This document shows positions 6,370 to 40,254 of a DNA stretch of 64,000 bases, piece by piece. The DNA is taken from NCBI GenBank assembly GCA_031254105.1, contig JAIRVB010000039.1, forward strand, positions 62,001 through 126,000. The letters are read 5' to 3'. This DNA comes from Chitinispirillales bacterium (GTDB lineage: Bacteria; Fibrobacterota; Chitinivibrionia; Chitinivibrionales; Chitinispirillaceae). The first letter of the stretch is position 1, and every line of letters starts with the position of its first letter. The translations under genes and the position numbers were made by a program. The notes under the pieces were generated by a model, which did no database searches, had not been told where the DNA came from, and saw nothing but the letters and a program-made list of their open reading frames with translations.

Positions 6370-7127
6370 ATGCCTGCAAGTTCTTTTTCATTATACCAAA
6401 TACTTGCAAAAAAGTCCAACCGAAACAACACATTACGCAAAATCAACGAAGAACTTGTTTCACTTTATTGGAACATTGGAAAACATTTGAGCCGCGAGAC
6501 ACAAAAACACTCCTGGGGAGACAAATATATAGATAACGCCGCAAATTTCCTCAAACAAAATCATCCCGATTTAAAAGGGTTTAACAGGTGCGGGCTTTAT
6601 CGGATGAACGGTTCTATGAGATCTATATGGATGACCAAATTGTGTCAGCACTGCTGACACAATTAAGCTGGGCGAATCATCTGCTTATTATGAGCGCCGC
6701 AAAAAGCCCCAAAGAACGGCACTTTTATATCAAAAAAGCCATCGAAGAAAGATGGACTTACAGAGAATTGGACAGGCAGCTCGAAAGCGCGTATTTCCAG
6801 AGAGTTTCGTTGTCCGAAAACAAAGCGCTGCCCGCAAGTATGCCCAAAGATAATGTACATCAATTTTTAGGTACCTGCGTTTTAGAGTTTTTAAATCTGC
6901 CAAGCGGATACACGGAAAACGATTTGCAAAACGCTCTCATTGAAAACATGAAAAATTTTCTTTTGGAAATCGGCAGAGAATTTTCATTTCTCGGCAAAGA
7001 AATTAAGATACAGGTTGGAAGCAGCGATTTCTTTTTAGATTTGCTTTTCTTTCACAGAGGGTTGCAATGCCTTGTTGCGTTTGAGTTGAAAAGAGGAAGA
7101 TTTATTCCCGAATATATAAGTAACTGA
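6370..7127 (+). pseudogene. Broken YhcG/DUF1016-type PDDEXK nuclease gene
   Basis: Two overlapping frames together read as a YhcG-type (DUF1016) protein. The first (from 6370) carries the N-terminal domain (NEELVSLYWNIGKHLSRE ... DLKGFNRCGLYRM). The second (to 7127) carries FYEIYMDDQIVSALLTQLSW and the PDDEXK nuclease core (FFLDLLFFHRGLQCLVAFEL). One missing A near 6607 explains the frame change, because ATGAAACGGTTC would restore MKRFYE. The gene also stops early at RFIPEYISN, losing the conserved C-terminus, and its N-terminus looks shortened. It is a dead remnant at the left edge of the accessory island. Confidence 0.75.
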
Positions 7128-7155
7128 AGTTACACACTCTATGTTTACCAATTGA

Positions 7156-7181
7156 TATAATTTGGGATTAATCTCATTGCC
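7156..7181 (+). repeat. Direct repeat copy 2 flanking the broken YhcG gene
   Basis: Partner of the copy near 6238, located just upstream of the accessory cluster's first gene. It shares the core AATTTGGGATT and a following ATTGC. Confidence 0.35.
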
Positions 7182-7299
7182 TCTTTACATGGATTTTTGT
7201 AATAAGTGTTTAGTGCTGATAGGGAAAATTTTTGCGATGGTTGGTAACAGTCATTTTTATATATTATTTTAATATTAAACGATTAAGGAGGAGGTAATT

Positions 7300-8697
7300 A
7301 TGGAAAAGAATAACATTATCAATAGAGAACAACTTTTTCAGAAAATTCATGCTGCTGAAAGGCGCATTCGTATATTAGGAGCGGTTGCATTTGATTTACC
7401 ATATGACGAATTTAAAGAAGAATGGTTAAAAAAAATCAACGCGGGGGAATTAACAGTTGAAATAATTTGCGAATCGGAATCGTCACTTAGCTATGATGCG
7501 CTCATTGCTTCTGATCGCAAGGTAAGCGGAGAGAACCGCAGCTATGAAATAGGCGACTTTCGTAATATAGCAAAAGAAGCTTTAATGAACCTGAAGCATT
7601 TTCTCGAAAGAGAAAAATGTAAACATCTTGAACCAAATTCTGAAGGCGGACAAAATCTTTTTATCAGAACTTACTATTTGGCCCCAAAAATTCCCGTGAT
7701 AAATGTTGATGGTGATTATTACATCGGGCTTGCTTTGACAAAGTTTAATCATATAGAAAGATTTGAAAAAATTACTAAAGATCATATTTGGGCAACGGAA
7801 CTTTACAGATATTTTAACGCATTTTTGGACAGTGTAAATGGGGCAAGAAAATATTCAACAGAGGAAACTAAATCGGGAAATAAACTTGAAGTTATACAAA
7901 TGTTTAATAACGACAGGGTTCCTCAAGGCCAGCTTCCACGAGATTCATTTTTAGACTCTACACGAATAAAAGTGGTTGTTTGGGGACTGATTTTTACAAA
8001 AGATGGATATATGTTAATTCATCAACGCAGCAAAAACGCCAAAGATAATCAAGGCTTGTGGGATAAATCTATTGGCGGTCATGTTGATATTGAGAGAGAT
8101 ATTGACACTGTCAAAGCGGCATCAAGAGAACTTCTTGAGGAATTATACAAAAAAGAAGACGATGAACAGGGTGGGTACAATAAAGCTGATTTTTTTAAAG
8201 CAAATGAAGATAAACTTGTGTTTTTAGGAGAGTGGCGACCCAGTTACAGACTTGACAGTTTGTTTGAGGATACAAAATATAAACCGGATGAGAGTTATTT
8301 TTGGCGCATGAATTATAAATTTAGCAGGAAAGTTGTTAATTCACCGCGCATTTTACCTGATGGGAGTAAACAAACTGTAAAAGCTTTTGTAGATTTGTAC
8401 ATTTGCATTGCATCAGATGATTTTGCATCAAAAGTTGCAGATAATAAATTGAAAAACTCAAAATACAAACTGTTAAAACCGTATCAACTAAAAGATTGGT
8501 ATAGGGGTGTGGCTTATTTTGATGAAAAAGAAAACAGAGAAGCTGAGTATCGGGAGAAAGATGATAATACTAGAGAAATGGTCAATGCTGAATTCAAAGT
8601 TACGCCTGATTTGGAAACTATTATAAATTCAGATATCTTTGAAGATGATATAAGCTCTTTTGCTGCTTATCTTGAGACCAAAAATAAAAGCAAATAA
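7300..8697 (+). CDS. Nudix protein with extra N-terminal domain (island gene 1)
   Basis: 465 residues, preceded by a strong AAGGAGGAGG ribosome-binding site. Residues 1 to about 200 form an alpha/beta domain (AAERRIRILGAVAF; INAGELTVEIICESE) that faintly recalls a phospholipase D-like fold without visible HKD motifs; this is inference. Residues 224 to about 410 are a Nudix domain (VVVWGLIFTKDGYMLIHQ), with box GGHVDIERDID...SRELLEEL at 259-282. The box is about two residues longer than the standard 23. The domain resembles isopentenyl-diphosphate-isomerase-type Nudix proteins. It is the first gene of a same-strand AT-rich cluster with GK-like genes, suggesting it acts on a nucleotide or diphosphate made or sensed by its neighbours. 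Confidence 0.75.
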   Translation: MEKNNIINREQLFQKIHAAERRIRILGAVAFDLPYDEFKEEWLKKINAGELTVEIICESESSLSYDALIASDRKVSGENRSYEIGDFRNIAKEALMNLKHFLEREKCKHLEPNSEGGQNLFIRTYYLAPKIPVINVDGDYYIGLALTKFNHIERFEKITKDHIWATELYRYFNAFLDSVNGARKYSTEETKSGNKLEVIQMFNNDRVPQGQLPRDSFLDSTRIKVVVWGLIFTKDGYMLIHQRSKNAKDNQGLWDKSIGGHVDIERDIDTVKAASRELLEELYKKEDDEQGGYNKADFFKANEDKLVFLGEWRPSYRLDSLFEDTKYKPDESYFWRMNYKFSRKVVNSPRILPDGSKQTVKAFVDLYICIASDDFASKVADNKLKNSKYKLLKPYQLKDWYRGVAYFDEKENREAEYREKDDNTREMVNAEFKVTPDLETIINSDIFEDDISSFAAYLETKNKSK

Positions 8698-8722
8698 GAG
8701 ATGCAAGAATAGGATTTTGCGC

Positions 8723-9613
8723 ATGAAATATATAATCGCAATCATGGGACCATCTTTAAGCGGGAAATCTTTTGTGATACGAAGGATTATGGCCAATGTT
8801 TGTGTTGGGTTTACTCCAATACTCATTAGCAAACAAACAAATAGAGAACTGCGTAGAGAAGAAAAAGACGCAACTGAGCGGGGTGAACAGATAGACGTTA
8901 AACCGGTTCTTCAATTTACTGCGGATTTAATGTATCAAACGTATGGCAAACGAACCGGTACAACAATTTCCGAGTTGATTGACAAAACAAACGATGGGAA
9001 GACACCTGTAGTTATAATTAACGACATAATGGCGATGTCAAAGTTGAAGCGTGAGTGTGAATCTCGCGATCCTGATATATGTGTAATTTCTATTTTTTTG
9101 TTTCGGCGCATTCCCGTAAGAAATGATTTTTTTGAAGAATCAAGAAAACGTGGTAATGTACCTGATGAGGAAACAGAACAAAGGTATGATAAAGCCAAAA
9201 CGCTGTATAGAATTTACATAGAAAATATGCATGTTTTTGATTATGTGATATTAAACGCAATAACATATCCCGAAGAAGTGATTGAAGATGATGGAAAAAT
9301 CAGAAACTCAATTATTGATAACCAAATTAAAGCTATTCGGGATAACATAATCTTAAAAGGAATACGGCCATTTAAAAGGAATAATCATTATAAACCGCCT
9401 TTATATGTTATTACCGGAAATGCGGCGTCAGGCAAGGATGAACTTATAAGAGCTACCATTGATTTAGGAAAATTATACGCGGAAGCTGTGCCTAAATATA
9501 CTTCACGTAGTCAAGGTTCGGACGATGGGCCGGAAATGATATGTAAATATATTATTGATGAACAGGAAGTTTTAAATTTTAAAAAAAAGCTGAGCTGTTT
9601 AAACAAGAAATAG
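8723..9613 (+). CDS. Tandem guanylate-kinase-like P-loop protein, zero-frame part (island gene 2a)
   Basis: The ATG at 8723 has an AGGA 8 bases upstream; an in-frame TTG at 8660 would overlap gene 1 and lacks support. The product starts with Walker A GPSLSGKS (residues 9-16) and a GK-like core, then begins a second P-loop domain at about 232 (GNAASGKD, with Asp in place of Ser/Thr) followed by a GK-like lid region (PKYTSRSQGSDDGPEM). Translation stops at 9613, shortly after an A8 tract. The second GK domain is therefore cut off unless the ribosome shifts to the -1 frame. Probably a nucleotide kinase or sensor; the substrate is unknown. Confidence 0.7.
   Translation: MKYIIAIMGPSLSGKSFVIRRIMANVCVGFTPILISKQTNRELRREEKDATERGEQIDVKPVLQFTADLMYQTYGKRTGTTISELIDKTNDGKTPVVIINDIMAMSKLKRECESRDPDICVISIFLFRRIPVRNDFFEESRKRGNVPDEETEQRYDKAKTLYRIYIENMHVFDYVILNAITYPEEVIEDDGKIRNSIIDNQIKAIRDNIILKGIRPFKRNNHYKPPLYVITGNAASGKDELIRATIDLGKLYAEAVPKYTSRSQGSDDGPEMICKYIIDEQEVLNFKKKLSCLNKK
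9583..9589 (+). promoter_or_regulatory. Candidate -1 frameshift slippery site A AAA AAG
   Basis: The zero frame reads TTT AAA AAA AAG CTG; slipping back one base gives GCT GAG CTG in the open frame. An SD-like AGGAAG (9564-9569) ends 13 bases upstream, as in known -1 sites such as dnaX. No strong downstream stem is seen, only a TGTTTAAACA palindrome. A plain one-base loss in the A8 run (a mutation, a read error or transcript slippage) would look the same. Confidence 0.45.
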
Positions 9614-10314
9614 TAGCAAAATTAACAGATATTAACAAATTAAATGTTAAATATGAAGAATGGCTGAATTATGATGATACTGGCAACGAGAAAAATAAAA
9701 TAGGCAAAAATGAGCTTTATGATGTTGGTGTTAAAACATTTCTTTGGTGGGAGCTACTTGATAAGGCCCAAAAAAAAGTATCCGATATTCAGGAAATTTT
9801 TCCATGGGCGCATAAAACTGATATTAATCCTGTCGGATATATTGAAAATCCAAAATATATTGAGTTGCAAAATTTACTTAATACACTTAAAGCAGAAGAA
9901 ATTGAGTCAAGATTTATTTATTACAAAGCTCACAGCAACCAGTTTGAATATCATATTGATTTGGAAACTATACGAGAAGGTTTAAAAAGAAATAAGGCAC
10001 AGGTAATAGTACTCAGCGATTGGGATTCAATTGATAAATTAAGACAGGAATTTGGGGAACAGGTCATAGTTGTTTTTTGCCATTCTCAGATAGATGAAGT
10101 TGAGTATCGTAAAAAGGCTATGGGAACAGCTACTGAGGCAAAAACTCGAAAATTTCATCAGCAGTTGAATGATTATGTTGAACATTTTTGTGATTACAGG
10201 CATGTCATCATATATGCCGAAAAAGAACTTGGACTTGCTAGTTGTGGAAGGCAGGAGGAACTTATTGATCAGTTATTTAAACTATTTTGCGCATACGAAC
10301 AAAAATGGCTATAG
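9589..10314 (+). CDS. -1 frame continuation of the tandem GK-like protein (island gene 2b)
   Basis: From 9583 to 10314 the -1 frame is open. It continues the second GK domain with AELFKQEIVAKL, then residues typical of the GK C-terminal half (RFIYYKAHSN; IREGLKRNKAQVIVLSDWD; FGEQVIVVFCHSQIDEVEY). Joined to 8723-9589 the protein would have about 530 residues with two GK-like domains. The join is at A AAA AAG (9583-9589), the classic -1 slip heptamer. Independent initiation at the ATG/TTG near 9865 would lose half of the domain and has no good ribosome-binding site. Confidence 0.6.
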   Translation, partial: AELFKQEIVAKLTDINKLNVKYEEWLNYDDTGNEKNKIGKNELYDVGVKTFLWWELLDKAQKKVSDIQEIFPWAHKTDINPVGYIENPKYIELQNLLNTLKAEEIESRFIYYKAHSNQFEYHIDLETIREGLKRNKAQVIVLSDWDSIDKLRQEFGEQVIVVFCHSQIDEVEYRKKAMGTATEAKTRKFHQQLNDYVEHFCDYRHVIIYAEKELGLASCGRQEELIDQLFKLFCAYEQKWL

Positions 10315-10326
10315 GAGGGGATTATT

Positions 10327-11796
10327 ATGTTGTATATCTTATTTGGGAGAGATCATATCGGCAAAGGAACTGTACGTGATCATTTAGCAGAAACATATGG
10401 TTTGATTATTATCCCTAAATTTACTAATGATAAACATAAGGAATGGAAAATACGATGTTTGCGAAATGATTACGAATATGAAGATTCAGAATCATTTAAA
10501 TTGAACAACGAAAATAGCGAATTTAATCAATTTGCATATAATAAGAAACTCGAACATAGAATATCAAATAGTGGAGTACCTTTTAAATTGGACGACTGCT
10601 ACGATAAATTTGTAGATAAAAAGAAAAACGAATATAAGAGCATTTACAGTACACAAAATGCTTATGCTTGTGCTAAAAATGATGATTATCTATTATATCG
10701 CTTTGAAAAACCCAAAGGAGATGATTTAATATATGAGATTTCTAAGAGCTATAAAACAAGGCGGCCATATAGTGCGAAGTATTATATAAAACGCACTCAT
10801 GTTAAAAGTGCAATCGAAAATTTATCTAACAACTATATTTTGGTTTGTACTTCTGGAAAAGTCATTGATGAGATTGAAGTCATGTGTAAAGGTAAAGATG
10901 TGGTAAAATTGATTTTTGTTGATGGAACAGAGAAATCAAAAAGCGGGTATCAATCGCAATGGGTTGTAGAACCAAAGCTTGGCAGTAAAACTGAACAGCC
11001 TGCATATTACTTTATTAGAAATTCTTATAAATTTAAAAGAATTACAAATGATACCTATTTATCTGCGAACAACAAATTTGATCGCGATAAGTTTTCTATA
11101 GAGATAAATAAACAATGGGAATCCATCTGCAACACATTGCCATTAAAATTAAACGCTTTTTTAATAAGGCCATTTAAACCATCATATGAAGATTCTGTTT
11201 TAAAACATCTTGATACAGAAATCAATATTAACAATTTATTTCAAAATGCGTTGGAAAAGAAAGTGAATAATATTCTAGAAAATCGAGTTAAATTTGTCTA
11301 TCTATCAGATTTTAAAGAAGGTGATTTATTAAATCGCATTAAAAAAGCTATTGCTTATAGCCATATTGTTTTTGTAGATTTAAGATATCATCGTAATAAT
11401 TGTTATTATGAATATGGTTTTGCGAATGGAATTAGAGAAAAATATGGAAAAAGGGTATTTTGTTTAATCGGTATCAGAGATAGCGGTAACGAAACTACCG
11501 ATATTGAAGCCATTAATGATGGTATTAAAAATGTTTGGGCAGAATTAGAAGAAACTACAGAAGAAATAGCTTTTGATGTATCTAAATTTTCACATTATAA
11601 ATATTTACTTAGAAATATTACATCCAATGATGATGGATCACCTCAAATAGATCTACATTGGGTACCAAAAACAAATCAAGAAAAATCTCTCGAAATGGAA
11701 TTACGTGATTTTTATAGACCAATTACTGTAGATGTTGAGATGTTAGTGAAGGAGAATTTTAAATATGAATTTTCGGGAACGGCAAGAGCTTTATGA
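10327..11796 (+). CDS. GK-like / TIR-like fusion protein (island gene 3)
   Basis: 489 residues, initiated from a strong AGGAGGGG site 12 bases after gene 2b. The N-terminus has a P-loop GRDHIGKG (residues 7-14) and a degenerate GK-like domain ([32 protein letters not shown]). From about residue 275 the C-terminus is a Rossmann-like domain with the signature [31 protein letters not shown] and KRVFCLIG. This is the pattern of nucleoside 2-deoxyribosyltransferase/TIR-like domains, in which the Glu of YEYG is catalytic. Such domains in immune systems cleave NAD+ or nucleotides; that role here is inference. Confidence 0.7.
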
Positions 11797-12382
11797 ATAC
11801 AAAAAAGGAAATAAAAAATTATTCAAAGTTTACGAAAGAATAATATTATGGTTTGCAATTAAAAGATATTCCAGTATATCTCAAGGCAGCGAAAAATGGC
11901 ATATTTGGCAGGAAAAATTATCATACACACCCGATGTGGGAATTTTTGCTAAAAAACGTGCATTGTTTTATTATTTAACAATGACCTGCGGCGATCTCTT
12001 TTATCCGCATACAGGTTTAATAATTTATTATCCACAGAATGTTGAGATAGGTGACCGGGTTTCAATTAACCGCAATACTATTATAAGCGCTAAAGAAAAG
12101 ATAAAAATTGGGAACGATGTATTAATTGGACAAAATGTATTAATTAATTCAGGCAATCATAATTTTAACAGGCGGGATATACCGATTAATAAACAAGGCC
12201 ACACATTAAAACCAATAACTATTCACAATGATGTTTGGATAGGCGGTGGGGTCATTATTCTTGCTGGTGTTACAATAGGACAAGGCGCCATTATAGCTGC
12301 TGGCGCAGTGGTGACTAAGAATGTTGAGCCATATACAATAGTAGGCGGAGTACCTGCAAAAAAAATTAATAATCGCATCTAA
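11765..12382 (+). CDS. Hexapeptide-repeat O-acetyltransferase (island gene 4)
   Basis: The 205 residues end in a left-handed beta-helix of hexapeptide repeats ([48 protein letters not shown]) and the common closing motif [10 protein letters not shown]. The likely catalytic His is in NSGNHNF. Relatives such as Maa/NodL/WcaF transfer acetyl groups from acetyl-CoA to sugars. The ATG lies 32 bases inside gene 3, and an AAGGAG about nine bases upstream supports it. Its place between two GK/TIR-like genes is unusual; it may be a passenger or may modify a signal molecule. Confidence 0.8.
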
Positions 12383-12415
12383 TATATTCCTGTTTTAACG
12401 TTAAGAAAGATACTT

Positions 12416-13513
12416 ATGAAAAAGTTATTTATAGTTGATGGAGCAATGCGTCCGGCTAAAAATGAATTGGTACGGCATTTAACTAAACTCGAAAAAAATT
12501 TATCAGGCGGACATTTTTCAAATGTATGTTTAGCGAGAAAATACTCTACTAAAGATGGAGGTATTGATCAAGACTATGAGCAAAAAGAAAATTTGGAGAC
12601 AATTATTGACAATGATAAAAGGCAATATATATCCTATACGTATGAAAACTCGACTTATGGTTTGGAGAAAAAATATTTAGATGACCTAATTGAACGGCAT
12701 GAAAATGTTTTTCTTCTTATTGGAAGTACTGAGTTAGTTTTTGAATTAAAACAAAAATATAGTAAGCATAATTTCCCTGTAAAAGTTGTGACTGTTTATG
12801 TTTATAGTGATAAAAAAACCATTGAAGATTCGTATAAGTGCCAAGAATCAAATCAACCCTCAGTTCCTTTGCCAGAACGTCAAAAACGTCTTGAAAAAGC
12901 GGATAACGATTATGAAAATGCTATGGCAATGCTTGATCAATACGATGAAACTATCATTTATAATAAAAAGGATGGGTGCGGTTCCGGCTCTTTGGCGATA
13001 AAAATTAATGCTTTAATTGCAAAGTATAGAAACACCATAAAGCCTTATAGCATATTTTTAATTCATTCATTTTGCAATGAAGTGAATAACGCTGGGGAAA
13101 TATACAGGCAATTGCAAAAAGCAGCCGAGGGTGCATTTGGTGATGAATGTTCCACCGTGTGCACTAGCTTAATAAATGGTAAAGGGAGCTATAAAATAGG
13201 TGATACAATTTGGGACGCATTAGAGACTAACGATTATATTATCTGTGATATTACACCCGATAGACGCTTAGGTTGCGATGCGTCAATTGGTACCTCACCT
13301 AATATTTGGATTGAACTCGGTTATGCGCTTTGCGTAATGCGTTCCCGTAACATTAAAATAGGCCAAAGGCTTATTATTACATGTAAAACAAATGAAAGCG
13401 TTAAAATCAAAAAGCCAACAGATATTAATGATTTAAATATAGTTTACTATAAAGATTATGATGAGTTTTCAATAAAAATAGCAGAACATCTGAAAAAACT
13501 CAAAGATAATTGA
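12416..13513 (+). CDS. GK-like / TIR-like fusion protein with degenerate P-loop (island gene 5)
   Basis: 365 residues. The N-terminal half follows guanylate-kinase topology (LARKYSTKDGGIDQDYE as the lid; NSTYGLEKKYLDDL; VVTVYVYSDKKTIEDSY), but the P-loop is degenerate: GAMRPAKN at 9-16 lacks the second Gly and the Ser/Thr. It probably binds rather than phosphorylates. The C-terminal half repeats the TIR/deoxyribosyltransferase-like signature (IWDALETNDYIICDIT; SPNIWIELGYALCVM; RLIITCK), with the acidic residue in IELGYA. It resembles gene 3 in domain order and closes the cluster. Confidence 0.7.
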   Translation: MKKLFIVDGAMRPAKNELVRHLTKLEKNLSGGHFSNVCLARKYSTKDGGIDQDYEQKENLETIIDNDKRQYISYTYENSTYGLEKKYLDDLIERHENVFLLIGSTELVFELKQKYSKHNFPVKVVTVYVYSDKKTIEDSYKCQESNQPSVPLPERQKRLEKADNDYENAMAMLDQYDETIIYNKKDGCGSGSLAIKINALIAKYRNTIKPYSIFLIHSFCNEVNNAGEIYRQLQKAAEGAFGDECSTVCTSLINGKGSYKIGDTIWDALETNDYIICDITPDRRLGCDASIGTSPNIWIELGYALCVMRSRNIKIGQRLIITCKTNESVKIKKPTDINDLNIVYYKDYDEFSIKIAEHLKKLKDN

Positions 13514-13558
13514 CACAAAAACAAACGGCAAAAATGATTTTGCGCAAAAATATTGACA

Positions 13559-14965: not shown

Positions 14966-15051
14966 GCCCGGGTGGTGGAATAGGTAGACACTGGGGACTT
15001 AAAATCCCCTGGCTTGAAAAGGCCGTGCCGGTTCGATTCCGGCCTCGGGCA
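14966..15051 (+). tRNA. tRNA-Leu(UAA)
   Basis: An 86-base class II tRNA. The acceptor stem GCCCGGG pairs with CTCGGGC, the D-arm contains GTGGTGGAATAGGTAGACAC, the anticodon stem-loop GGGGACTTAAAATCCCC carries TAA, and a variable arm precedes the T-arm GCCGGTTCGATTCCGGC. The 3' CCA is not encoded. Leucine tRNA genes are common integration sites; the accessory island ends about 0.2 kb upstream. Confidence 0.96.
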
Positions 15052-40152: not shown

Positions 40153-40254
40153 TGCCGTCACCCGGCGAAGGCTGGAATCCATTGTTTCTGTTCTTTATTC
40201 TAAAATTCACAGAGAAGAACAGTAGCCCCCGCCGGCGCGGGGGGGGGGTGGCGG
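40153..40254. repeat. MITE-like palindromic element, copy 1
   Basis: Begins GCCGTCACCCGGCGAAGGC and ends in GCCCCCGCCGGCGCGG...GGTGGCGG, with GTTCTTTATTC and GAAGAACAG inside. Its length and end words match the element at 42108-42207, but the arms are more diverged. Confidence 0.5.

Follow-up and report, generated by a model that had tools for sequence, protein, structure and literature searches.

A rare operon joining a Nudix hydrolase and tandem guanylate-kinase-like domains to interchangeable effectors: a candidate conflict system

Several bacterial immune systems, including CBASS, Thoeris and Pycsar, join a constant nucleotide-handling core to interchangeable effectors, among them TIR, SIR2 and transmembrane proteins. 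Clover, which consists of the dNTPase CloA and the nucleotidyltransferase CloB (PMC12265719), is likewise a defence centred on the nucleotide pool, with activating and inhibiting nucleotides. The ternary and STAND conflict systems of the Aravind group (PMC7159879, PMC8195603) use GT4-conflict, TIR, SIR2 and DrHyd effectors, carry one adaptor domain on differing effectors and are patchily distributed. Here, we describe an operon of comparable logic in a 64,000-nucleotide stretch of a Chitinispirillales genome (contig JAIRVB010000039.1, positions 62,001 to 126,000; hereafter "the window"). Its constant core is a Nudix hydrolase with a pseudo-phospholipase D (pseudo-PLD) domain, followed by a protein with two guanylate kinase (GK) domains, and this core is joined by one of two effector classes.

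Unlike CBASS, Thoeris and Pycsar, the operon has a Nudix and tandem GK core in which no CD-NTase, cyclase or ThsA/ThsB was detected; in the window cluster, PADLOC (version 2023) and Pfam gave no CD-NTase, and the PADLOC scan gave neither ThsA nor ThsB. The likeness to Clover extends to an HD-type effector in one relative of the operon, whereas the operon carries GK and Nudix proteins and several effector classes and lacks a Pol-beta nucleotidyltransferase; neither that enzyme nor an HD dNTPase was found in the window cluster with Pfam and PADLOC. Effectors overlap with those of the Aravind-group systems, yet most of the operon loci have no STAND, MoxR-vWA or GTPase core, and term searches in PMC7159879 and PMC8195603 showed no Nudix-GK core. 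A sequence-only reading of this DNA had been aware of no described defence system with this layout, and we too found no description of a Nudix and tandem GK core in the literature, of which our coverage was partial, so that an earlier description is possible. The operon follows the logic of known conflict systems, with a core that is new to everything searched.

The window cluster comprises five genes on the plus strand, which encode the pseudo-PLD-Nudix protein (7300..8697), the tandem GK protein (about 8723-10314), GK-NDT-I, in which a GK-like domain is fused to a nucleoside deoxyribosyltransferase (NDT)-like domain (10327..11796), a hexapeptide-repeat acetyltransferase (11765..12382), and a second such fusion, GK-NDT-II (12416..13513). 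As the sequence-only reading had noticed, the genes are AT-rich, with a GC content of 0.29-0.35 against 0.47 in uvrB and sppA at the two sides, and strong ribosome-binding sites precede the Nudix, GK-NDT-I and acetyltransferase genes. All parts of its five-gene layout are present, although it had missed the break in the frame of the tandem GK gene.

Relatives were collected from GTDB with a hand-made Nudix motif scan, which yielded 54 loci, 29 of them with the full-length Nudix family; these 29 were extended and then classified with profiles built in this analysis. Because the scan picks Nudix genes containing WDKS, the counts are no census. In 25 of the 29 loci, GK genes lie immediately 3' of the Nudix homologue on the same strand, and one further locus (L026) stops at a contig edge; two of the 29, L088 and L089, are near-identical. 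The order seen in the window, Nudix, GK-A, GK-B, GK-NDT-I, GK-NDT-II, is repeated exactly in three Clostridia-type loci (L095, L096 and L101), so the layout does recur in other genomes. A random sample of Bacteroidota, drawn with no motif selection, gave an extra locus with the order GK-NDT, transmembrane-like protein, Nudix, tandem GK. Because of this out-of-sample locus and the 25 adjacent pairs, the Nudix-GK pairing is beyond chance.

The operon is very rare and patchily spread. Its hosts are Clostridia, Erysipelotrichales, Bacteroidota, Spirochaetota, Planctomycetota, Chloroflexota, Myxococcales and Gammaproteobacteria, and 168 genomes of the window's own phylum, one of them congeneric, contained no other full-length Nudix homologue or GK-NDT-I. 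Sampling beyond the centre genomes found none in about 398 genomes of the phylum and about 298 of the family of a Merdimonas genome (Bacillota), one in about 296 Bacteroidota, one in about 303 Planctomycetota (one already known), and none in about 295 Spirochaetota. Viral and genome collections gave no match in pattern scans, whether single-sequence or steered; tblastn gave none against plasmids and a marginal one against phages, to the C-terminal domain of GK-NDT-II (E 0.03).

Two domains make up the Nudix protein, a pseudo-PLD domain at about residues 1-190 and a Nudix hydrolase domain at about residues 195-400. The latter, already named in the sequence-only reading, scores above the Pfam cut-off (PF00293, E 7e-5), and among 22 homologues GGH (259-261) and the catalytic box RE..EE (276-281) are invariant. 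An AlphaFold2 model built from the alignment of these homologues (pLDDT 83.5, pTM 0.78) also bears out the PLD-like N-terminus: Foldseek matched the C-terminal part to the Nudix folds of IPP isomerase and NudI (1e-6), and the N-terminal part to the phospholipase D fold (7e0m, 2e-4; also PssA, FAM83 and TrmBL2). Since the alignment has no invariant columns of the catalytic HxKxxxxD motif, we call the N-terminal domain pseudo-PLD. It should be mentioned that pseudo-PLD-Nudix homologues of the Methanosarcina type stand in a differing context in the archaeal loci L078, L079 and L080, and that in an Erysipelotrichaceae metagenome-assembled genome (MAG) the Nudix gene (L094:1526-2950, L057) is interrupted at 2479-2561 beside an apparently truncated GK-B, a copy that is possibly decayed.

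The GK-like domains of the sequence-only reading were likewise recovered, the tandem protein matching phrog_1815 (2e-9) and TIGR03263 (7e-7). Guanylate kinase profiles recognise GK-A as well as part of GK-B. GK-A of the window has the P-loop GPSLSGKS and an intact T-N-R-x-x-R nucleoside monophosphate (NMP) site, and all relatives aligned retain the P-loop and the NMP-binding arginines (TxRxxR). GK-B starts with GNAASGKDE in the window and reads GxxxxGKD in most relatives, most of which have lost the second arginine. By these motifs, GK-A is kinase-like and GK-B a variant. The effector GK domains lack the full set of guanylate kinase motifs, and several have degenerate P-loops, including GK-NDT-II of the window (GAMRPAKNE), as had been noticed before. 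GK-A thus resembles Gmk in its P-loop and NMP-binding arginines, whereas the operon GKs differ from Gmk in being tandem and effector-fused, in the GKD P-loop of GK-B and in the degeneracy of several copies; the genes are distinct from the housekeeping gmk of the genome.

In the window, the tandem GK gene is interrupted. The zero frame, with GK-A and the start of GK-B (8723..9613), ends within GK-B, and the rest of GK-B lies in the -1 frame (9589..10314; PF00625, 0.008). An intact homologue of 431 aa in a single frame (L090) has 66% identity before the junction and 44% after it. The junction itself is AAAAAAAAG (9581-9589), eight A and then G, whose end forms the heptamer A_AAA_AAG (9583..9589) with AGGAAG upstream, exactly where the frame shifts; no stable RNA structure was found downstream (z -0.74). 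An assembly error, a disabling indel and a programmed A_AAA_AAG frameshift are all possible, and the window copy may be inactive, because its frame is broken, or recoded.

GK-NDT-I (489 aa) has a GK-like N-terminus (GRDHIGKGT), an orthologue in L090/L023 (33% over 464 aa) and a C-terminus in which D351, N358, C359, E362 and G364 are invariant. Its family profile matches nucleoside deoxyribosyltransferase structures (0.002). Foldseek matches of its model, to DNPH1 and NDT at the top and also to TIR (E 0.006 or worse), are consistent with such a domain and do not prove it, because the model is of low confidence (pLDDT 49.5). GK-NDT-II (365 aa) has homologues at the equal position in L095, L096 and L101; its C-terminal domain carries SPNIWIELGYA, and its family profile matches guanylate kinases (3e-7) and a CMP N-glycosidase (4jen, 0.008). 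Homologues of these fusions pass or approach the PF05014 cut-off, with 7e-8 in L098. The YEYGFA and IELGYA motifs cited in the sequence-only reading are present, and its TIR-like assignment holds for the Rossmann fold and the NDT/TIR clade, while the nearer relatives are the NDT/DNPH1 nucleotide N-glycosidases. Both C-termini share the catalytic Glu motif (E362 in GK-NDT-I) and the profile matches of the NDT, DNPH1 (Rcl) and MilB CMP N-glycosidase family, which the window proteins reach only via their family profiles; they have no Pfam TIR match, and the PADLOC TIR effector scored only 0.013. Within the TIR-DrHyd-SLOG clade, the domains fall on the NDT/DNPH1 side and not in TIR proper; they differ from the N-glycosidase family in being fused to GK-like domains.

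The effectors are exchanged between loci. GK-NDT proteins occur in 12 loci and proteins with a second shared domain (A8) in 10, and both occur together only in L076; loci with neither class are mostly cut by contig ends. A8 is fused to SIR2 (2e-20) in L089 and the near-identical L088, to TIR (1e-6) in L097 and weakly in L076, to HD-CE (3.5e-27) in L091, and to GT4-conflict (2e-69) in L085 and L026, and the A8 proteins of L087, L100 and L077 have N-terminal hydrophobic, apparently transmembrane, segments. L083 has GK-NDT plus a cytidine deaminase (dCMP deaminase family, 1e-13). The variable slot holds conflict-type effectors, in line with the sequence-only reading. GT4 is a recognised counter-invader effector (PMC8195603). 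The TIR, SIR2 and DrHyd domains serve in immunity as NADases or in signalling (PMC9503650), and the swapped enzymes recur in counter-invader systems (PMC9503650, PMC8195603, PMC7159879). The interchangeable effectors are probably toxic, and an immune role is argued for most strongly by their near-exclusive exchange, with enzymes recurrent in counter-invader systems. A homology of A8 to the pseudo-PLD N-terminus was also considered (hhalign P 1e-4, but a probability of 30%) and is not claimed.

The surroundings of the loci may point the same way. Among 65 flanking proteins, PADLOC recognised methyltransferases of type I and type III as well as PDC-S41 and PD-Lambda-2. An equal number of control proteins (65), taken from the same genomes, matched mostly generic models of the ATPase, HTH and polymerase types; family counts are inflated, since single proteins match many models. 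A type I methyltransferase adjoins L083 (9e-179), McrBC adjoins L075 (4e-20), and a Schlafen AlbA_2 gene adjoins L095. Defence genes, near which the sequence-only reading had proposed to look for an enrichment, adjoin several loci, in a small sample with a crude control. Neither outcome that it had named as telling against it, the lack of a GK or TIR-like fold or an independent occurrence of the genes in housekeeping contexts, was observed.

Taken together, the operon is probably a rare, mobile and modular conflict system, most likely directed against phages. For the more specific proposal we see roughly even chances: that it represents a new class of immunity, in which the GK fold would sense a nucleotide or make the signal and would also be the adaptor, coupling a Nudix-controlled core to interchangeable effectors that destroy nucleotides and NAD. 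The domains, the conservation of gene order, the exchange of effectors and the patchy spread are observed; the immune role, signal and direction of control we infer as follows. The core GK would bind or phosphorylate a nucleotide cue altered in infection; the effector GK domains would recognise either that cue or the core itself, so that GK or A8 domains tie the effectors to it; the N-glycosidase domains would destroy nucleotides or NAD+, stopping phage growth; and the Nudix enzyme would remove the cue, holding the system off. Several points weigh against this interpretation. GK is missing from three of the 29 Nudix loci, the archaeal ones; GK-NDT-I has no Pfam match and its structure model is of low confidence; the tandem GK is frame-broken in the window; the comparison of defence neighbours is small, with a control made crude by contig ends; and, because the operon is so rare (zero or one extra locus per about 300 genomes per phylum), the statistics are small.

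The same enzymes could instead form a sanitation or salvage operon for the nucleotide pool with no immune role, in which Nudix acts on unusual (d)NTPs to yield NMPs, the good ones are re-phosphorylated by GK, and DNPH1-like, deaminase or HD enzymes destroy the bad. All these families act on nucleotides, and the nearest structures are DNPH1, a 5hmdUMP hydrolase, NDT and CMP N-glycosidase; since the same slot is also taken by SIR2, TIR, GT4-conflict and membrane proteins, the effector P-loops are often degenerate, and the operon is patchily spread and of low GC, we regard this as unlikely. Growth control by alarmones, with GK domains sensing (p)ppGpp, the Nudix enzyme hydrolysing it, and effectors triggered by starvation and not infection, has a precedent, in that (p)ppGpp binds Gmk in Firmicutes and is hydrolysed by the Nudix enzyme NahA. 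These established links, to which PMC7584652 gave a lead, are set against the conflict-type effectors, the rarity of the operon and the lack of a recognised RelA/SpoT-type gene among the scanned operon genes, which make this explanation improbable.

Two further explanations were considered. It is possible, if rather doubtful, that this copy is a decaying remnant in a degraded island while its relatives are functional, which is compatible with a conflict role for the family: the zero frame ends inside GK-B where homologues elsewhere are intact in a single frame, and the neighbouring defence-type gene yhcG is broken. On the other hand, the remaining genes are all open, both halves of the tandem GK are still conserved, and the frame changes by one base at an A-run, which may reflect an assembly error or A_AAA_AAG frameshifting. 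A cluster for nucleoside natural-product biosynthesis or self-resistance, with the acetyltransferase and the CMP-N-glycosidase-like domains as tailoring enzymes, is suggested by the 4jen match and the adjoining acetyltransferase (PF00132, 5e-14), and is hardly credible, because the effectors exchange with NADases, no further biosynthetic genes are present, and none of the related loci encodes a homologue of the acetyltransferase. For this last reason the acetyltransferase, counted in the sequence-only reading as a member of the cluster, was rejected as part of the system; it occurs in the window copy alone and is local cargo.

The low-GC block sits between a broken yhcG remnant (6370..7127, plus strand) and a tRNA-Leu (TAA) gene (14966..15051, plus strand). 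The former, a YhcG/DUF1016 PDDEXK gene (PADLOC PDC-S02) outside the system, lies in two frames and is cut off at 7127, at its 3' end, where the inverted repeat GTAACTGAAGTTAC spans 7120-7133; it is a defence-type remnant at the island edge. No convincing direct or inverted repeats were found at the island edges. In a test for an empty insertion site, the genes flanking the island were found on separate contigs in the same-genus genome and in genomes of the family, with no tRNA there. Elsewhere in the window, at 40227-40250, a hairpin-like sequence, CCCCCGCC...GGGGGGGGGG, with a 10-G tract lies outside long open frames and is terminator-like or assembly-sensitive.

Two relatives show other arrangements. 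In an Anaerolineae locus (L102:2559-10433) an AAA-TPR module precedes the Nudix domain in one fusion protein, downstream of a gene with bDLD1, a bacterial death-like domain, and nSTAND1; this neighbour links the core to death-domain-type systems. In a Bacteroidota locus, an apparent membrane protein of 309 aa with no Pfam match (L123:1620-2549) lies between GK-NDT and Nudix and is a possible further effector.

Outside metabolism, guanylate kinase is best known as the scaffold domain of MAGUK proteins. If the proposed scheme is true, the fold would also be a new receptor and adaptor and, with Nudix, a new core for nucleotide-centred immunity, probably with a built-in Nudix off-switch. One relative of the operon (L089, of the SIR2 type) is in Merdimonas faecis BR31, a strain whose record bears no MAG label, and since effectors are swapped between phyla, the part that the core plays can be tested directly.

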